Part shown: positions 16,382 through 61,850 of the stretch, in pieces
Layout of the letters: the number at the start of each line of letters is the position of its first letter
How positions within the stretch are numbered: the stretch's first letter is position 1
Assembly (NCBI RefSeq): GCF_000439455.1
Contig: NC_021833.1
Span: 868,001-932,000, forward strand
From: Spiroplasma diminutum CUAS-1
Lineage (GTDB): Bacteria > Bacillota_I > Bacilli_A > Mycoplasmatales > Mycoplasmataceae
Direction: 5' to 3'
Length of the DNA stretch: 64,000 bases
Translations under genes and position numbers: made by a program
Notes under the pieces: generated by a model
Databases searched by the model: none
What the model saw: the letters and a program-made list of their open reading frames with translations, nothing else
What the model was told of the DNA's origin: nothing

Positions 16382-17140
16382 TTAATTATATAAAACTATA
16401 TTGGGCATAATATTATCAAATACTTGTTGATTCATCATACCTTCTTGTAAAGGATAAATTAATATTAATTCTAAAAGGAAAACCATTAAATAATATGTAT
16501 TCATGTATTCCATAAATATTTCTATTCTTTTTGATGATAATTCATCTTCATTAATATTTGAAGCTCTTTTATAAGAATTATTATAGTTCTGATTAAATTC
16601 AAGAATATTATCCATAAGTTTGGCAAAAGCTGCTTGTGCATCTTGTTTTGAAACAACCTTTAAAAATTCATTAATTGATTTAAATACTTGATGAGTATCT
16701 TGATCCAAATCTAATTCCTTATACTTTTCAAGTAATTCGTTTGTCTTAACACCAAATGCTTGTACTGCTGTTGCAACAATAATATCTATACCTTTTGAAT
16801 TATTTATAACTTCTTTTTCTACATTCTCTTTTTCAAGATTTACATCAATTGATATAAGAACAATAATAGAATTTTGGAGAATTGACATCAAGTGATTCAA
16901 TATTATTAATTTGTCTTGATTTCCATCAAGTACGATTCAATCTCCAAAAGTTTTGTCAAATTCTTGACCAAATAATTCAATTTCTTCTCTTGTTGAAAGT
17001 TGACTATTTTTATTTATAAATTCCTCTATATTTTTTGGAATTTTAAATTCCTTTCCAATATTTACTTTCAGGTTTTCATAAACTGTATTTACTCTTTTAA
17101 CAATTATTTTTTCGTAATTTATTTGTTTAATAGTTTTCAT
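16382..17140 (-). CDS. hypothetical protein, 252 aa
   Basis: I do not recognise this protein. The ATG at 17140 (MKTIKQINYEKIIVKRV) is chosen because AAAAAGGA precedes it; the frame extends further upstream without a binding site. One TGA (FGDWIVLDGN) is Trp. It looks mainly alpha-helical, with a hydrophobic segment near the C-terminus (YYLMVFLLELILIYPL) that may be a membrane helix or buried core. No catalytic motif seen. It is a lone gene, divergent from the plus-strand gene at 17222. Confidence 0.6.
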
Positions 17141-17221
17141 AAAAAAATCCTTTTCTATTTTTATATATAAGATAATCATACTACATTTGATATTATTATT
17201 AATAATAAGGGGGATATAAAT

Positions 17222-18346
17222 ATGGTATGAGGAGAATCAAATTCAAGAGATTTTCTTGATTGAGCTGATTTTTGCAGAAATAATGCAGTTAAATCAAGAG
17301 GGATTAATACAACAGGTGGACCTAATTTTGCATCTGATAAAAAATCTTCTCAATATAATTTTGTAAAAAATGTAATAATAAATACAATTCAAAATTATAA
17401 GAGCATAAGTGTTCAGCAATTATTTAATGTTTTACCAAATGACATAGTTGCAAACCCTACTTCAAAACATGTAATACTTCAATTATACTTTGAGGACAAT
17501 TTAAAAATACAAGGTCAAGCTAAAAATAATAATGATAGAGAATCAAATTTTATATTGGTCTTTGTAAAAAAACCTCAACCACCTAAACCCGCTCCAGTTA
17601 GTTCAATTCAAAAAAAACAATCAAATATTGAAGAATTAATGGATAATAATTGACAAGCAACTGGAAGAAAGCTCGAATTTGATAAAATGGAAAGAGAAAA
17701 TAGAAGTGATCTTAACATTAGTCTAAAAAGAGTTAACCCAACTTTAACAAATAAAGCTGCAGAAAAGCCAAATATTGACGTTAGAGATGTAAAAAAACCT
17801 GAACCAATTCCTGTTGAAATTCCAAGAGCAGATCCAAAAAGAGAAATACCTGAGATTATCAACTCTAATATAACATATATTCAAATACCAAAACCTAGTC
17901 CCGAAATTATAAAAGAGGAAGTTATTGCTCCGGTTAAAATGAATCTTGAATATAGACCTGAACCAATTAAGAAAGAAGTTATTATTGAAGAAAAAGTATT
18001 TTATGGACTTTCTGCATTTGATCTATACTATCTTGAAGCCTTTTTAACAGATGCTGCAATTAAAGAGAAATCAAATCAAAAAGAAATAAAAATAACAAGA
18101 GATATTTTAAAAGTTAGAGGAGATATAAAATACTCAGATGAAAAAAATTATTCTAATATTGGTAAAAAAATATTAGGTTTTATTGGTTGCATAATAATAG
18201 TTGGTATTCCAATAGTTATTGCTGCAAGTGGAAATAAGATAAGAAAAAAAGCAATTAAGACTTATAAAGAGCAATTTAAATCAAGAGGATATGACTCACT
18301 TAAAAAAGAATTAAAAGCTATTCATCCAAGAATAATTGAATTTTAA
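17222..18346 (+). CDS. hypothetical membrane-anchored protein, 374 aa
   Basis: No family recognised. The ATG at 17222 has a strong AAGGGGG site. Trp is encoded by TGA at three places (MVWGESN, FLDWADF, DNNWQAT). The N-terminal ~115 residues look like a compact alpha/beta domain. Residues ~120-250 are Pro/Lys/Glu-rich and probably disordered (PQPPKPAPV, PKPSPEIIKEEV). One strong membrane helix near the C-terminus (FIGCIIIVGIPIVIAASG) is followed by a basic 35-residue tail. There is no signal peptide, so it is probably a single-pass protein with a cytoplasmic N-terminal domain. It is a plus-strand singleton inside minus-strand genes and ends at a strong terminator. Confidence 0.65.
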
Positions 18347-18372
18347 AAAAAGAACCTTACGGTTCTTTTTTT
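18345..18372 (+). terminator. terminator after 17222 gene
   Basis: 12-bp perfect arms (AAAAAAAGAACC/GGTTCTTTTTTT) with a TTAC loop. Bidirectional in form; its end overlaps the stop of the convergent small gene. Confidence 0.9.
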
Positions 18373-18565
18373 ACATAGATTGTTTTTTGTAACTACTTTT
18401 TAGAATTTTAACTTCACTTGTAATATTTTTTAATTCATTTTTTTTGATTTTAATTTCTAATTTTGCTTGTTTCATTGCTTCTTTGCATTTTTCAATTTCA
18501 GTTTCTTTGTTGTCCTTTTGCTCTTTAAACTTAGCTAACTTTTCCTTTAAATCGTCTTTTGTCAT
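18371..18565 (-). CDS. small coiled-coil protein, 64 aa
   Basis: Lys/Glu-rich, predicted to be one long coiled coil (LKEKLAKFKEQKDNKETEIE...). The ATG has a good ATAAGGAG upstream at proper spacing, which supports a real gene. It is the last in the minus-strand block of the nuclease-like and repeat proteins, about 75 bases after the former. No known family. Confidence 0.55.
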   Translation of the reverse strand: MTKDDLKEKLAKFKEQKDNKETEIEKCKEAMKQAKLEIKIKKNELKNITSEVKILKSSYKKQSM

Positions 18566-18641
18566 TTTTATATTCTCCTTATATAAAACTCTATTTATAT
18601 AGATATAAGTTTAATTTAAAAGTATATTAATGTCAAATTAA

Positions 18642-19322
18642 CTATATTTCTTTTGCTGTAAGCAATATTCTTCCTTGCTCTTTTTTATTAATTGGCTCAT
18701 ATTCCATAAAGATTCTTTCTTCTCTTGGATTTAATATAAAGCAATTTTCAACTAGATTTCCTGTAGCATTTTCAAAAAGTTTTTTATATAAAAATAATTG
18801 TGCATTATATTTTTCAATATAATTTACTCTACTTGTCTTTATATCCATTATGTAATATTTTTCTTTTGATTTTAAAATTATATCTATGGTTCCGATATAA
18901 TTGCAGTCAAATCCCAAATATAAGAATGTTCTTTCAGAATATATTTGATCTATCTCATATTTATAAATAAACGAATTTAATTCAGTAATAATTCGCTTAG
19001 CAATATTTATATGATTTGAATTTTTACAATCACTCGTACTCAAATTTAACTTAAAATCTTTTCTATTGTTAATTGAATCTGATATCATTTGATGAACACA
19101 TTGTCCTTGTTTTATAGAATTTTCAATAATTTCTTTTTTTACAAATTTATTATGTAAAAAAGGAAAACATTTTTCTAAAATGATACTAACAAATGGCAAT
19201 TCTATTTTATCTGTCTCACCTATGAAACCTTTTAAAAAGAAAGGAACTTCTTTTATATCTTCTTTTAAAATATAATTGAAATTTTCATCTCTTTTAATTA
19301 TTTGTGTTAATTCGTATTGCAT
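18642..19322 (-). CDS. PD-(D/E)XK nuclease-like protein (RecB/Cas4-type fold)
   Basis: 226 residues. The motifs fit the RecB-like PD-(D/E)XK fold: G73-x3-H77 (GQCVHQMI), E130 (SERTF), D147 (YIGTIDIIL), D160-x-K162 (MDIKTSR) and QLFLYKK about 15 residues later (Q175, Y179). This matches the H...D...D-x-K...Q-x3-Y order of the PDDEXK_1 family, implying metal-dependent DNA cleavage. I see no four-Cys iron-sulphur cluster signature, unlike Cas4/AddB. The neighbours are two very large scaffold-like proteins rather than helicase or Cas genes. It lies 40 bases downstream of the repeat protein, probably in the same operon. The fold call is by eye. Confidence 0.65.
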   Translation of the reverse strand: MQYELTQIIKRDENFNYILKEDIKEVPFFLKGFIGETDKIELPFVSIILEKCFPFLHNKFVKKEIIENSIKQGQCVHQMISDSINNRKDFKLNLSTSDCKNSNHINIAKRIITELNSFIYKYEIDQIYSERTFLYLGFDCNYIGTIDIILKSKEKYYIMDIKTSRVNYIEKYNAQLFLYKKLFENATGNLVENCFILNPREERIFMEYEPINKKEQGRILLTAKEI

Positions 19323-19362
19323 AAATTACTCTCCTAAATATACATTAACAAAAAAATAATGG

Positions 19363-21894
19363 CTAACCATTATTTTTATTATAATTATGTCTTGTTGATA
19401 AAGAATCTATGATTGCTCTTGGAGTATTATTCTCTAAATCATTTACCATTTTTGAAATACTATCTAATTGTTGTGAGATTTTTGAAAAATCTTCAGATAA
19501 TCTATCTCCGTTAAGTTTGTTACCTAAATTTTCAATTAAGTTTTCTAATTTAGACATTCTTTTTTCAATTGAATTAAGTTTTTCTAAATCTACAGAATTA
19601 GCACTAGAATCTACTTTATTCGATGAACTTTCTTTGATTTCAACTTGTGGTTTTTCATAAACATCATTATGATTCTCAATTGATTCAATATTTGAAGTTT
19701 GTGAAATAACTGTAGTATTTGAAACATTTTCATTTAAATTTAATAATGATATTGCAGGAGAATTGGCTCCTGATAAACCATATTCTTCTTCATAATTCAT
19801 TTCTGGTTCAAATGATACTGGATTTATAACATCTGAAATATTTTCTAAAACACTTTCATTAAAAATTGGTGGTGTAGATATAGTTGTATCTGAATTTATA
19901 TTTACAACTTCCTCTTTTTGGTGACCAGTTTCCTTCATTTCTTTCATGATAACTTGAGCTGCAAGGTCTGGTTGATCAAAATTGAAATCTGAATAAACCA
20001 TATCCTTATCTGAATCAGAAATATCTGACTGGTCAAGTTGGCTTAAATCCATATTAACAGCTCTTGCCATTTTTTCTCTTACAAACTCTTCTTCAAGCCC
20101 ATTTGTTTTTAGTGTTTCATCATGACTTAAAGTTTGGGGAGCTATAAACTCCTCTACTTTATCTTCATTTGAAATTTCAAGTTCCTTTTGATCAGAACCA
20201 AGAATCATATTTGTCTCAAAAACTGGTAAAGTCGAAACAGTTGTTCCTGGCGCACCATTTGCAATTTCTTCTTTTTGTTCTTGAGCCTTTTTCATGTCTT
20301 TCATGATAACTTGAGCTGCAAGGTCTGGTTGATCAAAATTAAAATCTGAATAAACCATATCCTTATTTGAATTAGCTGGATCGCTTGACTCAGGTAGTTG
20401 TTCAATTGTCATATTAACAGCTTTTGCCATTTTTTCTTTAATAAACTCAGCTTCCAATCCTTGAGCTTTTATTGAAGTACCATGAACTATAGTTTGAGGA
20501 GCTACAAATGTTCCTAAAACTTCATTGACTTCACCTTTTTTAATTTCTTTCTCAACTTCAATTTCAAATGAAGGTGGAGCAGAAATTGTTGTTCCTGGAG
20601 TTGCATTTACAATAGATTGTTTTTGGTCTTGAACCTTTTTCATGTCTTTCATGATAACCTGAGCTGCAAGGTCTGGTTGATCAAAATTAAAATCTGAATA
20701 AACCATATCCTTATTTGAATTAGCTGGATCACTTGATTCAGGAAGTTGTTCAATTGTCATATTAACAGCTTTTGCCATTTTTTCTTTAATAAACTCAGCT
20801 TCCAATCCTTGAGCCTTTATTGAAGTGCCATGAACTATAGTTTGAGGAGCTACAAATGTCTGAGGTACACCTGGTTTATTTCCACCAGAATATCTCTCAT
20901 GTAATTTTTCAATTTCCTCATCTACTGAAGTTGATTCTTCTCCACCAAAAGCAGTAGTTGCTTCAGATATTGAAGTTGATTTAAAGTTTGCATCAATGGT
21001 ATTATCATCAATTGTCATATACTCAATACTATAATTTTGTGATATTCTAAGTTTTGCTCCTAGACGATTAACTTTCATAACATTGAAATTAAATTTACTA
21101 ATCACTTTGGTTAATTCTTTTTCATTTAGATTTTGCATATTTGCTTCAATCTGTTTTCTTTGAATTTCCAATTTTGCTTTATAATCTTTTCATTTTAGAT
21201 AATACTTTTTAGCTTTACCCTCTTTATAAAAATTTTCTAGCTGTTCTTCAGCTGATTTTGGCAACGCAGAATTATCATTTACTTTTGTTTGATCGTTTTC
21301 TTCTTGAAAATCCTCTATTTGGTTTTTCAAATCTACGTTGCCAGTTAACTTTCCCTCTTTTGATACCTCTTTTTCAAATTTTCTTTCTTCTTTGTAAATT
21401 GAAATTAGGTTTCTTTCTTCGGCATAATTATTTAATGCCTCTGAATCAAATAAAACAACTTCTAACATAATAAATGCTATTAAAATTAAACTTGCTACAA
21501 TAACAAATATTAATTGACCTGTTAATAACAATAAAACACCTGTAATAACTAATGTTACTTTAACAAATGGTTTTGAAACTTTTTGATGTTTTCTTAATCT
21601 TACTAATTCAATAATTGATAGTGTAATTAAAACGATTGCAACAACTATTGCAATTACTAATCAAGTAATCACTGTTACTTTATTAGCTGGCTCTGCTGAC
21701 GGATAAAATACAGCATTGTTTCCATAAACTGGTGCAAATAATGGTTTTGTTAATACAGACAACATTTTAATAATAAACGGTATTGGTTTTGCTGATGTTA
21801 ACATTAAAACTAATGTTGAAGTACCAAACAGTAATAATCCTGTTGATGCTGCTAATGTTAATGATCAAGCACATATAATAAATATAGCAAACAT
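19363..21894 (-). CDS. large membrane protein with three ~118-residue repeats, 843 aa
   Basis: Not recognised. The frame runs from the ATG at 21894 (ribosome binding site AGGAGGAAAG) through TGA(Trp) codons; without them it would appear as two genes. N-terminal ~165 residues: about four membrane helices (e.g. VTVITWLVIAIVVAIVLITL and VIVASLILIAFIMLEVVLF). Then a charged cytoplasmic region. From about residue 346 come three tandem repeats of ~116-120 residues. Each has APQT(I/L), an EFI/VKEKMAKAVNM-like helix, and the invariant block DMVYSDFNFDQPDLAAQVIM. Repeats 1 and 2 are nearly identical. The C-terminus is coiled coil (LEKLNSIEKRMSKLENLIE). The family has no catalytic motif; it looks like a membrane anchor with a repeated binding platform. 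Confidence 0.75.
19790..20859 (-). repeat. three in-gene tandem repeats
   Basis: Units start at about 20859, 20511 and 20148 (spacing 348 and 360 bases). Units 1 and 2 are almost identical at DNA level, e.g. both encode MVYSDFNFDQPDLAAQVIMK; unit 3 is diverged except around that block. Confidence 0.85.
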
Positions 21895-21906
21895 ATTTCT
21901 TTCCTC

Positions 21907-24117
21907 CTAATTTTTCAGTTTTTCCCAGTTGCCTGGAACTGAAATTAATTTTGTATCTCTATTCTTGTTTATCTCATTTGCTGAAGACTCTTCAATATTT
22001 ATTGGTCCATTTTTTGATAAACTTACATTTAAATTATTTAACTTTCCTTCGATTTCGCTTCTTGGTCTCGGGTCAGTATTTCTATTTGTTCTTGTAGCTA
22101 ATGATGATTTGTATCTATCCATATTTTCGAATGGATTTGCATAAGGATTTAATTTCATTTCTTTTTTAGAAAGTATTGATGGGTCAAATCCTGATTCACC
22201 CTTTCTTTGAAGCCTAGCTAATTCTTCACGCTTTTCTTGTTCTAAAATTTCATTTTTTTGTTTTTCAAGTACTTGATCAACATGAATTCTTAGATTTGAA
22301 TCAATTCCTGGATCGTATTCTTCTTCTTGTTCTTCAAATTCATATTCATTATGAATTTCTGAAAACCTAGGAAGCTGAGTCGAATTATATTCCTCAGTGA
22401 AATTGTTATTAGATATTCCTGGTATATTTCCAGTAAACTTGCTATCAGTTTTATCGTAAGTTAACTTGATTTCACCTTCATCTTGAGTTTCAAACATATC
22501 TATGGAAACATCTTTTAATTCTTTATGAAAGAATTGATCTAAATTTCCTTGATTTTCATTGTTTTGTATTTCTAGATTTTGTAAAGTTGCTTTCTCATAG
22601 TTAAAGGGCTCTTCATGATAATTATTAAATTGTTGAAAATTTTGATAATTATCATTTTGATAGTGATTTTTTATTTGATTTGAGTTCTGATAATTTTCAT
22701 ATTGCAATTGTTCGTTCAATTGATTAATATGCTGATACTCTTCAATCAAATTATTTTCATATTGTTTTTCATTAATTATTTTTTTAGTTACACTTGAAAT
22801 TAAAGCAATATCTGAAACAATGTAGTCATAATTGTCAATTATTTCTTCAATTCTATTTATGTCCAATAAAGAGTAATCAATATTTGTTATACAAGATACA
22901 TTCGGTATTTCCATAATTAGATTTTGAATAAATTCATTAATTAATAATATTTTATCTAGACTAATATTTTGCAAATTATTTAAAATAACATTAATTGGTT
23001 CATTAAAATTATAAGAATCAAATAAATTATTAAATTCTTCTATAAATAATTTAATAGGATCTGCAGATAGATTTAACAATTCAAGAATATAATCTATTTC
23101 AGAATTAGTTTTACCTCAATCTGTTGCTGCTAGAAGTAGAGAAGTCTTTTCTCATAATGACCTTTTATCTTCTATATTTATTTTGTCTGGTAAATTATTA
23201 ATAATTCTTTTTAATATAAATAAACAAGGAGAAGAATACTGAATTGTTTTTTCTAAATCAAGTTCTATTAGATTCTCTAACGTATTTTTATCAATTAGCG
23301 ATTCATTGTTTATTATTAATATGTTTTTAAATTTATCTGAATTTTGGCTCTTTAATTCAATATATTCGTTTGAATTAATTATCTTATCATTAATAATTTC
23401 AATTTCTTCTGTTTGAAAGAAATCATCATATTTTTCATCAAATTCAGTTTGTGATAATAAATCATCTTCTTGTCTATTTTGACCTTGTTCTTCAATTTTA
23501 TTATTAAATGAATCAATTTGTTTTTCAAAATTTATAGTAGGTTGTGAAATATCTTTCCCCATTATTGTTTCCCTATTAAAAGGAGGAATATTTGATTCAA
23601 AACTCATGTTATGATTTGGTTTAACTTGTTCTGAAATTAATTCTCTATTAAAAGGAGGAATATTTGATTCAAAGTTCATATTAGATTGAGGTAGAGAGTG
23701 ATGATCAAATGAATTTACCTGCTGATTAGCAGAATTATTTTGATTAAAATTTGTCTGATTATTAGAAAATATTGGAAATTCCATTGGGGTATAATCCTTA
23801 TTTGAAGCTAATCCGATTTCCTTTTCAAAGTCTTCCATAGTTCTATTTGAAGAAGCTGTTGGAATTTGATAATTATTATTCGATTCGGGTAAATTATCAA
23901 AACTATTATCAATTGCCATACCAAAAGGGGGCACTTTGTTTTGATTTGATTCTCCAATCAAAGTTTTAATAAAAGAAGGTACTACAGCCTTATCATCTGT
24001 AAATCCCATTTGTGCACCTAATCTTGCGTACTTTTCTCTTTCTTTTTCAACTTCAAGACGCTTTTTCTCTTCATCTTCTCTTTTCTTTCTCATTCTTTCG
24101 AACGGATTTACATACAT
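21907..24117 (-). CDS. large scaffold-like protein with possible cryptic MinD/CpaE-like domain, 736 aa
   Basis: Not recognised as a whole. The ATG at 24117 follows AGGAGGTTTCC. N-terminal coil (MYVNPFERMRKKRED...), then a disordered Asn/Gln-rich arm with the repeated phrase FESNIPPFNRE (two copies around 23550-23700). Residues ~255-450 look globular: AATDWGKTN (330-338) resembles a deviant P-loop (G335-K-T), and later VSCITNIDYSLL then NYDYIVSDIALISS (D436) follows the pattern seen before the Walker B-like Asp of CpaE/TadZ/MinD proteins. This is a weak, by-eye resemblance. A second low-complexity arm and a C-terminal NPFENM echoing the N-terminal NPFERM complete it. TGA codons at 322 and 334 are Trp. 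Twelve bases separate it from the repeat membrane protein, so the two are co-expressed. Confidence 0.7.
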
Positions 24118-24142
24118 ATGGAAACCTCCTAATCTCAATGTT

Positions 24143-24148
24143 ATTATA
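24143..24148 (-). promoter_or_regulatory. extended -10 promoter of the scaffold operon
   Basis: TGGTATAAT, an extended -10 (TG-N-TATAAT), about 30 bases before the start at 24117. No clear -35, as is common for extended -10 promoters. In the 315-base gap 24118-24431 I otherwise see only a palindrome and a terminator. Confidence 0.6.
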
Positions 24149-24348
24149 CCATATTTTTTTAATTTTTTTACCCTAATTCATTGCAATATACTATCTTGTT
24201 TGATATGATATATACCTTTTTTTAGTGAAAATTTAAATAAATTAAAAAGAAGAAGTAGATAAATTAGCAATTTTTACTGTTTAAAAACCCCGTCTTTTTT
24301 GATATTAACTTTTTACAAAATAATTATAACATAAAAAAATAATATATA

Positions 24349-24362
24349 TTACACTAGTGTAA
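24349..24362. promoter_or_regulatory. 14-bp perfect palindrome
   Basis: TTACACTAGTGTAA, a perfect palindrome of higher GC than its flanks, in the gap between the membrane-protein terminator and the scaffold promoter. It has the form of a dimeric repressor site. Confidence 0.35.
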
Positions 24363-24399
24363 ATATAAAATCAAATTTTTTTTAAAAAAAATATAATAA

Positions 24400-24423
24400 A
24401 AAAACCCTTAAAATAAGGGTTTT
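24400..24423 (-). terminator. terminator after 24432 gene
   Basis: AAAACCCTT/AAGGGTTTT arms with a 5-base loop and a long T-tract on the minus strand. Ends the operon that begins at 31081. Confidence 0.85.
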
Positions 24424-24431
24424 AAAACTTT

Positions 24432-25730
24432 TTATAAATTATTACTTACCTTTTTGAATTTTACGCCAAGAATTATATATATAGTTGCTAAAAAACTAAT
24501 ACTTATAATTGTTTGTGAAATATATTTTAACCCAGATAATCATGGATCAGGCATTTCATTGTTTATAAAAGGAAAACCATATACTTCCTTTAAATATTTA
24601 GATTCCAAAGCTATTTTTGGAATTGTAATTGTTCCCTGATTTCAATAATTAGTTATCTTTTGTGCTTCATGAGATGAATACGCAATTACGATAAGAACAA
24701 ATATTATTTCTACTAATAAAAGAATATATTGCATTGCAAAACTATATTTTGATCTGTTTCAATTTTGCACATAAGCAACAATTGAAATAAGTATATTAGA
24801 TATTAAAAATCCTGATACTATTATTGGTAAGAATTTTATTACAAAATAAGAACTTTTAATTGTTTCACTTGATAATGTATCAATATTTTTATAAAGATCA
24901 GTTACTATAAATGTTCAATTAAGCATTGATCCCATTTTTGAATTAAAAACAGACATATTAATAATATAAATTAATGGAGTTATAAAAACTAAAGTTGTTC
25001 CAATTATTAATCAAAATAATATATTTTTTGTATCATTTAATGAAAATTTGGAAATTAGTTCTTTGATACCAGACCTATTAATACTTTTTGAAACTGTAAG
25101 AATCTGATTATTATTCTTATTATTTCTTAATCAAATACTGAAAAATAATATTACAAATATAATTTTCAGAATAGCTAGTCATCAAGTTAAACTATCATTT
25201 GACCATTTAAATTTTGTAATACCTTTACCATATATTTCTATAAATCCTAAGCGTAACTTTTCAATTGCATCATCATTTTCCAATTTTAATCCTTCATCAT
25301 TATTAATTAAAAAATCATATAAATAATAAAATCTAGAATAAGAAAATTCAGAGACCGCTATTAATACAATTGAAAGTATTGCCAAGAAACCTATTATAAC
25401 TATATATGATATTTTTTTGAAGTCAGATATTTTTGCTTTTAAAATTAAACCTAAAAAGGCTATCATTATTAAAGCACTAATTATTAAAGAAAGAGACACT
25501 CAAGAGTTAATCATTATACTTGAATAACTTACAATAACATTTCTACCAAAGTTTTCTTTGATAATATCAATGTTATCAAAGTAATAGTCTAAGGCTTTAT
25601 TAATATTAATGATTACGATATATGTCACTGTTGGAATTAATAAAAGTAAAAAAACTATAGTAAATCTTCTAATAAGTTTTGCACTATTCTTGAATTTTTC
25701 AATTACAAAGTTATCTAAACTCTTATTCAT
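24432..25730 (-). CDS. hypothetical multi-pass membrane protein, 432 aa
   Basis: No family recognised. About eight membrane helices are visible, e.g. TIVFLLLLIPTVTYIVII, LSLIISALIMIAFLGLIL, YIVIIGFLAILSIVLIAV, and others after each TGA(Trp). Between helices 3 and 4 is a ~50-residue hydrophilic loop. The ATG at 25730 follows AAGGAG and overlaps the 3' end of prmC by 8 bases, so translation is coupled. It is the last gene of the tdk-prfA-prmC operon; its position tells little about function. Transport or a membrane-structural role are both open. Confidence 0.7.
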
Positions 25731-60806: not shown

Positions 60807-61850
60807 ATGGCATCATGAGATCGTAAAAGAGAATTTGTTGCTTTAGACTTAGGAACAGCTAACGTAGTTGCTTACCTAGGTGGACAAGGTATCATTTATA
60901 ATGAACCTTCAACTATGGCATACGATATTCACACAAACACAGTTGTGGCATCAGGTGAACAAGCATACGAAATGATCGGAAAAACAAATGAAGACATTAG
61001 AATGGTTGTACCATTAGTTGATGGGGTTATAGCAGACCTTGACGCAGCAAAAGATTTAATTAAAATAATCTTTTCACGTATTAAATTATCAGATATCTTA
61101 AAAAATGCATTAGTAGTTCTTGCCTGCCCTTCAGGAGTTACTGAATTAGAAAGAAGTGCATTGAAACAAGTTGTTGCAGATATGGGAGCAAGAAATGTTC
61201 TTGTTGAAGAAGAAGTTAAATTATCAGCAATCGGAGCTGGAATTAACATTAATATCGCAAGTGGACACTTAGTTGTTGACATTGGTGGAGGAACAACAGA
61301 TATAGCTATTATTTCAGCTGGAGATATTGTTATTTCAAGATCAATTAAAGTTGCTGGAAATCACTTAGATGAAGAAATAAGAAAATATATTCGTGCTGAA
61401 TACAACGTATTAATCGGAATTAAAACTGCAGAAAAAATCAAAATTGAAATTGGTGCATTAACAAAAATAGATAATGGACGTACATTCCGTGCATTCGGAC
61501 GTGATGTTATCTCTGGTTTACCAAGAGAAGTAGTTATCTCACCTGATGAAGTGAAAAACGCTTTATTAGCACCATTCTCAAAAATTACAGACCTAATTGT
61601 TGAAGTTATGGAAAACACACCAGCTGAATTAGCTGGAGATATCATTAGAAATGGTATTACAATTTGTGGAGGAGGAGCTTTAATTAGAGGAGTTGATACT
61701 TACTTTGAATCAATTTTCCAATTAAAAGTAACTAGAGCTCAAGATCCATTACTAACAGTTATTGAAGGTACAAAAGAATACGAAAAACAAGCAGAAAAAT
61801 GATTAGAAGTTGTTGCATTACGTGATTCAAGAGAATACAACATTAAATAA
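60807..61850 (+). CDS. mreB: MreB, canonical paralogue
   Basis: Actin-like cytoskeletal ATPase shaping the cell. 347 residues. Phosphate 1 ALDLGTANVVAYL, phosphate 2 VVDIGGGTTDIAII, GNHLDEEI, and adenosine site ICGGGALIRGV are intact. In wall-less Spiroplasma MreB underlies the helical shape and motility. The ATG at 60807 has GAGGAGG; TGA at codon 4 (MASWDRK) is Trp. Codon use (CGT, more C-ending codons) suggests high expression. Confidence 0.97.

Follow-up and report, generated by a model that had tools for sequence, protein, structure and literature searches.

A two-gene unit that follows fib in spiroplasmas, a candidate membrane scaffold of the helical cytoskeleton

Only in helical spiroplasmas has a bacterial actin system been reported to power the swimming of cells (PMC13310574). 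The described components of the internal ribbon of these cells are the fibril protein, MreB1-5, and the "7th protein", a lipoprotein named SPE_1229 (PMC10074174). As reported in the reconstitution studies, MreBs together with fibril conferred helicity and kinking on mycoplasma and minimal cells, with swimming that was not efficient or continuous (PMC9663586, PMC9710875). In the minimal cell, two MreBs were enough for helicity and its switching (PMC9710875). The authors invoked further components (PMC9663586) and a missing tapered tip or missing tip proteins (PMC9710875) in this context. It has also been reported that helicity was lost in the Mycoides-Entomoplasmataceae clade, presumably along with genes of the cytoskeleton (PMC5091035).

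Here, we describe two adjacent genes of Spiroplasma diminutum, referred to as A and B, that form a unit belonging to no known family, present in nearly all fib-bearing spiroplasmas and absent where helicity was lost. The pair is a specific and testable candidate for the components missing from the reconstitution of swimming. If confirmed in this role, A-B would give a name to the membrane scaffold of the actin system that drives swimming.

Gene content of the Spiroplasma diminutum locus

The window, i.e., the whole stretch of DNA that was analyzed, comprises 64,000 bp of the S. diminutum chromosome. The chromosome is one contig of 945,296 bp, in agreement with its published size (PMC5091035), and reads with genetic code 4. 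ORF calling with this code recovered, at the same coordinates, all five ORFs of a block that had been delineated by the initial annotation. We traced the genes in 60 relatives and, by profile searches, followed A, B and Fib across 60 family genomes; for A and B, the single fused frame (genome G016, described below) was split into its A and B parts. The features are listed below in window coordinates.

21907..24117, minus strand: gene A, soluble scaffold-like protein of 736 aa (code-4 ORF; orthologues in 40 of 60 family genomes)
24088..24117, minus strand: N-terminal motif MYVNPFERMR of A, kept in nearly all orthologues
22828..23355, minus strand: conserved core of A, ~ residues 255-430, predicted P-loop-NTPase-like fold without Walker A (AlphaFold2, Foldseek, motif check)
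23107..23130, minus strand: string AATDWGKT of A, residues 330-337, a false Walker A match (follows a helix in the model; no conservation among orthologues)
19363..21894, minus strand: gene B, predicted four-TM membrane protein of 843 aa with a long acidic repeat tail (code-4 ORF; the same 40 genomes as A)
21337..21894, minus strand: membrane domain and long conserved helix of B, residues 1-186 (hydropathy, AlphaFold2, alignment)
21052..21216, minus strand: conserved helical hairpin of B, residues 227-281 (AlphaFold2; module comparison among relatives)
19900..20859, minus strand: three direct repeats in the putatively cytoplasmic tail of B (offset comparison)
19420..19587, minus strand: C-terminal coiled-coil-like region of B, ~ residues 770-825 (moderate conservation in the family alignment; coiled coil judged from sequence)
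18642..19322, minus strand: RecB/Cas4-like PD-(D/E)XK nuclease of 226 aa, a neighbour outside the A-B unit (motifs, PHROG 298, independent distribution)
18371..18565, minus strand: coiled-coil-like protein of 64 aa, a neighbour (ORF, genetic code 4)
17222..18346, plus strand: single-pass protein of 374 aa, a neighbour in divergent orientation (ORF, hydropathy)
24401..24423, no strand assigned: terminator-like inverted repeat upstream of A, between the multi-TM gene and A (sequence)

Successive genes of the minus-strand run were separated by 12, 40 and 76 bp, a spacing that makes their co-transcription plausible. The genes are more than chance ORFs, because orthologues with long open frames were found in dozens of genomes, at identities down to 21-25%. 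The usual order in relatives was prfA - prmC - multi-TM gene - tsaC - A - B - nuclease, where the ~ 170-aa proteins beside A were recognized from their sequence and are taken by us to be tsaC products (Sua5/YrdC-like). Many relatives have tsaC in the interval that separates the multi-TM gene from A; S. diminutum (24118-24431) and roughly half the genomes of its genus lack it there. The multi-TM gene (24432-25730), directly after prmC, was conserved in helical and non-helical genera. We considered its product as Scm1, the motility protein of S. citri, which has 409 aa. The Citri-clade copies of the multi-TM protein were 469-484 aa long, a poor fit, and the occurrence of the gene in non-helical genera also made this assignment less likely. 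An MreB gene was found within the window at 60807-61850, and more mreB copies were located just past the window end (chromosome positions 936746-940475).

The nuclease downstream of B has its RecB/Cas4-type catalytic motifs intact, as read in the sequence (H, GTID, DIKT and QxxxY, in the form H..GTID..DIKT..QLFLY). It matched PHROG 298 (exonuclease) with E=3.9e-15, scored 18 bits against Pfam PDDEXK_1 (under the cut-off of 22) and 22.2 bits against NCBIfam cas4 (far under the 65-bit cut-off), and yielded only weak nuclease-fold hits in PADLOC (Cas4/DruK). The nuclease gene also occurred in non-helical genera that have no A-B, and in other genomes it was unlinked. Searches with the nuclease found no copy in two Citri-clade genomes, and likewise none was seen in three A-B carriers of the genus of S. 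diminutum. This independent distribution ruled out the nuclease as a part of an A-B system.

The plus-strand 374-aa protein contained one hydrophobic segment (residues 311-329), which bears out its earlier description as single-pass, and was restricted to the Apis-clade genus and three other genera. Within the Apis-clade genus it was conserved at full length, often with 50-78% identity, and had no family match. Another protein without a family match, ~ 250 aa long and encoded beside rpsL (16382-17158), was, at this locus, confined to the Apis-clade genus. We excluded the 64-aa coiled coil and the plus-strand protein from the A-B unit, as their distribution departs from that of A-B. In consequence, the idea of a four-gene system, as put forward in the initial annotation, was narrowed to a tight A-B pair that excludes the nuclease and the coiled coil. 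Likewise, the suggested recurrence of the three larger genes held for A and B, which were found together in 40 of the 40 genomes with either, and failed for the nuclease.

Distribution of A and B

A and B occurred in the identical 40 of the 60 family genomes. In each of the 29 separate pairs measured, both genes were on the same strand and either overlapped or were at most 48 bp apart. Full-length fib was present in 42 of the 60 genomes, counting two whose fib gene contains a stop. A-B was found in 40 of these 42 genomes and in none of the 18 fib-less ones, so every A-B genome carried fib. A-B thus shows the co-distribution with fib and multiple MreBs by which a helical-ribbon component may be recognized. 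No linkage of A-B to mreB or fib loci was observed. The pair was conserved from the Apis clade to the Citri clade, with 21-26% identity, and also in reduced genomes of 0.9 Mb. In S. helicoides (G014) and S. sabaudiense (G078), fib was interrupted and both A and B were kept; these two species have been reported as helical swimmers without intact fib (PMC9582952). The pairing and distribution of A and B are solid.

The two fib carriers without detectable A or B belong to one genus, designated g11. Members of this genus (Spiroplasma sp. TIUS-1 and G029; loci L118, L119, L129 and L130) encode a divergent Fib, with 35-45% identity, and MreBs. Profile searches did not detect A in g11. The A-B slot was occupied by a multi-TM protein with an acidic tail (proline-rich in TIUS-1), whose match to B was only suggestive.

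The 18 fib-less genomes represent five genera, which formed one clade in a prfA tree built with representatives of all five and covering all but a few species. This clade corresponds to the Mycoides-Entomoplasmataceae clade. The co-loss of A-B and fib is therefore one event, so the Fisher values for the co-distribution overstate the evidence. We must also note that the loss of A-B is one event among many losses in that clade. A link of A-B to helicity is nevertheless probable, on the grounds of the distribution with its one shared loss.

A single loss would also be expected if A-B were a lineage-specific membrane pair unrelated to cell shape (acting, e.g., in transport regulation, envelope stress or host interaction) that disappeared by chance during genome reduction in the Mycoides-Entomoplasmataceae ancestor. 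Genus g11, which is of helical type (Fib, MreBs) and lacks a recognizable A-B, fits this explanation as well. However, A and B were kept together in all other fib-bearing genera, even at 21-25% identity, and persisted in the 0.9-Mb genomes and in both species with a broken fib. Moreover, the non-helical clade kept the genes neighbouring A-B: the eight fib-less loci that were fetched read prfA - prmC - multi-TM gene - tsaC - nuclease, with A-B alone absent. We therefore regard a pair unrelated to shape as doubtful.

Predicted architecture and putative role of A and B

Searches of A and B against Pfam, NCBIfam, PADLOC, PHROGs and PDB sequences gave nothing usable. In the alignment of A, conservation was concentrated in the N-terminal M(Y/F)xNPFERM motif and the central domain; beyond the ends and the core, A was of low complexity and poorly conserved. 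The AlphaFold2 model of the central domain had a mean pLDDT of 81.6, with the core above 90. In a Foldseek comparison with the PDB, the core was best matched by the RdrA ATPases of RADAR (probability 1.00, E 7.7e-4), with TM-scores of only 0.39-0.46; further matches were ORC/Cdc6 and other AAA+ proteins, all weak (E 0.05 and above). At the P-loop position, Walker A was missing from each of the 31 orthologues checked, and just two of them kept the acidic Walker B pair. The string AATDWGKT follows a helix, off the P-loop position, and was not conserved among orthologues; it may be the origin of the "ATPase-like" label in the initial annotation. Pfam PF07693 (KAP_NTPase) gave no hit above its curated cut-off: one of 31 orthologues matched at E 0.016, and the window protein was unmatched. 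Since the modelled fold resembles P-loop ATPases and has no Walker A motif, A is probably a scaffold, i.e., a pseudo-ATPase.

B was predicted to have four TM helices, the last of which runs on into the long conserved helix, followed by the hairpin and then the acidic tail (residues 301-760, pI about 4.4). As whole proteins, A and B have pI values of 4.6 and 4.8, respectively. Three direct repeats with a spacing of 116-120 aa were found in the tail by offset comparison (self-BLAST gave none), and two of the three were 97% identical over 78 aa; together with the TM segments, they agree with the earlier description of B as a repeat membrane protein. Tandem repeats in the tail were seen in many Apis-clade and few Citri-clade species. 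No fold or family was assigned to B at a meaningful score, and Foldseek with its AlphaFold2 model gave no match.

The hairpin module was present as a single copy in most relatives. In the genera designated g9 and g12, two genes take the place of B, one for the membrane part (200-209 aa) and one for the tail. The tail gene that follows the membrane gene in g12, the genus of S. sabaudiense, is giant (2305-3280 aa), with long repeats and three hairpin copies; such genes were located at L126:7376-16711, L194:8036-17878 and L195:7319-14236. The protein at the B position in genome G024 had the hairpin and no membrane part. In genome G016 (L141:3636-8762), the stop codon of A was lost, which left A and B in one open frame of 1708 aa. 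This frame is weak evidence of fusion, since sister species have a stop there and the ribosome-binding site and ATG of B are retained; it could be a sequencing error.

We propose that helical spiroplasmas possess a membrane-associated scaffold to which both A and B belong and which serves the MreB/fibril ribbon or the cell tip, a reading to which we assign an even chance of being correct. It is based on the multi-TM protein with a long variable tail, the adjacent soluble scaffold, and the distribution that follows helicity. For A and B, but not for the other genes of the block, this retains the membrane-anchored cytoskeletal apparatus suggested in the initial annotation, as their shared recurrence is in line with a scaffold linked to the helical cytoskeleton. 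The following mechanism is proposed. B would be anchored in the membrane via its four helices, and its long, acidic and often repetitive tail would reach into the cytoplasm. A would be the soluble partner of B, with a core that has a P-loop ATPase fold and no nucleotide site and may act as a binding platform, not a motor. Together, they would attach or organize the MreB/fibril ribbon at the membrane or the tapered pole, and this organization may turn helicity switching into continuous swimming. As two MreBs suffice in the minimal cell, A-B is not required for helicity itself. A more specific and more tentative version, possible but not one we would lean on, has A-B supply the part of the helicity-switching motor that is still missing on the membrane side: the four-TM anchor, the tandem-repeat tail and the pseudo-ATPase adaptor would jointly link fibril and the bacterial actins to the membrane and in this way let kinks move processively. 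Neither A nor B was among the proteins reported for the S. eriocheiris ribbon and internal structure (PMC5289999 Table 1, PMC9582952 Table 2), where only gel bands were identified, which makes this absence weak.

Instead of serving the ribbon along its length, A-B might build or position the cell tip, where the dumbbell core occupies the tapered pole, and would then determine polarity and the direction of swimming. It has been stated that the proteins making up this pole are not known, and the pole is lacking in minimal cells that have MreB and fibril (PMC9710875). A low-complexity scaffold and a repeat-tailed membrane protein would suit a polar organizer. Nevertheless, 16 proteins were reported for the Triton-insoluble internal structure, which includes the dumbbell, and neither A nor B is one of them (PMC5289999); we consider an exclusive role at the tip rather unlikely.

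The initial annotation had also offered tethering of the nucleoid, for which we found no specific evidence. A function of A-B in anchoring the nucleoid to the membrane or in chromosome segregation could be supposed from the ORC/Cdc6 proteins among the fold neighbours of A, but these are the weaker matches, both proteins are acidic, and no DNA-binding family was found for either at a meaningful score, which makes such a function highly improbable. Least credible is an anti-phage defence module, another earlier suggestion, with the nuclease as effector and A, owing to its RADAR-like fold, as ATPase sensor: the RdrA match, the intact nuclease motifs and the faint Cas4/DruK hits are set against a sensor without Walker A, a block without an RdrB-like gene, a nuclease distributed independently of A-B, and an A-B pair that occurs throughout its lineage at a single chromosomal site, not patchy or mobile.

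Comparison with known systems

The modelled core of A may share its fold with RdrA of RADAR and with KAP-type/AAA+ P-loop ATPases, to judge by the Foldseek probability and E value, albeit at low TM-scores; it differs from them in the lack of Walker A in all 31 orthologues and, nearly always, of Walker B. RADAR combines an active RdrA ATPase with the adenosine deaminase RdrB; besides the missing Walker A motif of A, no deaminase family was identified among the block proteins in Pfam, NCBIfam, PADLOC or PHROGs. The neighbouring nuclease shares its four motifs and the PHROG 298 match with stand-alone RecB/Cas4-type nucleases, whereas its score is far beneath the cut-off for Cas4 proper (22 vs 65 bits).

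Among the proteins associated with the ribbon, SPE-1201 (two TM segments; PMC5289999, PMC9582952) resembles B as a large membrane protein found only in Spiroplasma. In S. eriocheiris (G062), however, SPE-1201 has 769 aa and is encoded by gene 1201, whereas B has 985 aa and is encoded by approximately gene 70. Gene order and length thus ruled out SPE-1201 as the B orthologue. Our gene count in S. eriocheiris was checked with FtsH: an ORF of its published length (692 aa) was located at gene 13, as in the published numbering.

Like fibril, MreB1-5 and SPE_1229, A-B is confined to helical spiroplasmas, and its distribution follows that of the helical cytoskeleton. In contrast, A and B are not homologous to any of these components, and their genes lie elsewhere on the chromosome, flanked on one side by tsaC or the multi-TM gene and on the other by the nuclease. 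A-B resembles SPE_1229 in being an uncharacterized, membrane-associated companion of that cytoskeleton, but SPE_1229 has been reported from the Citri clade only, whereas A-B is present in both the Apis and Citri clades.
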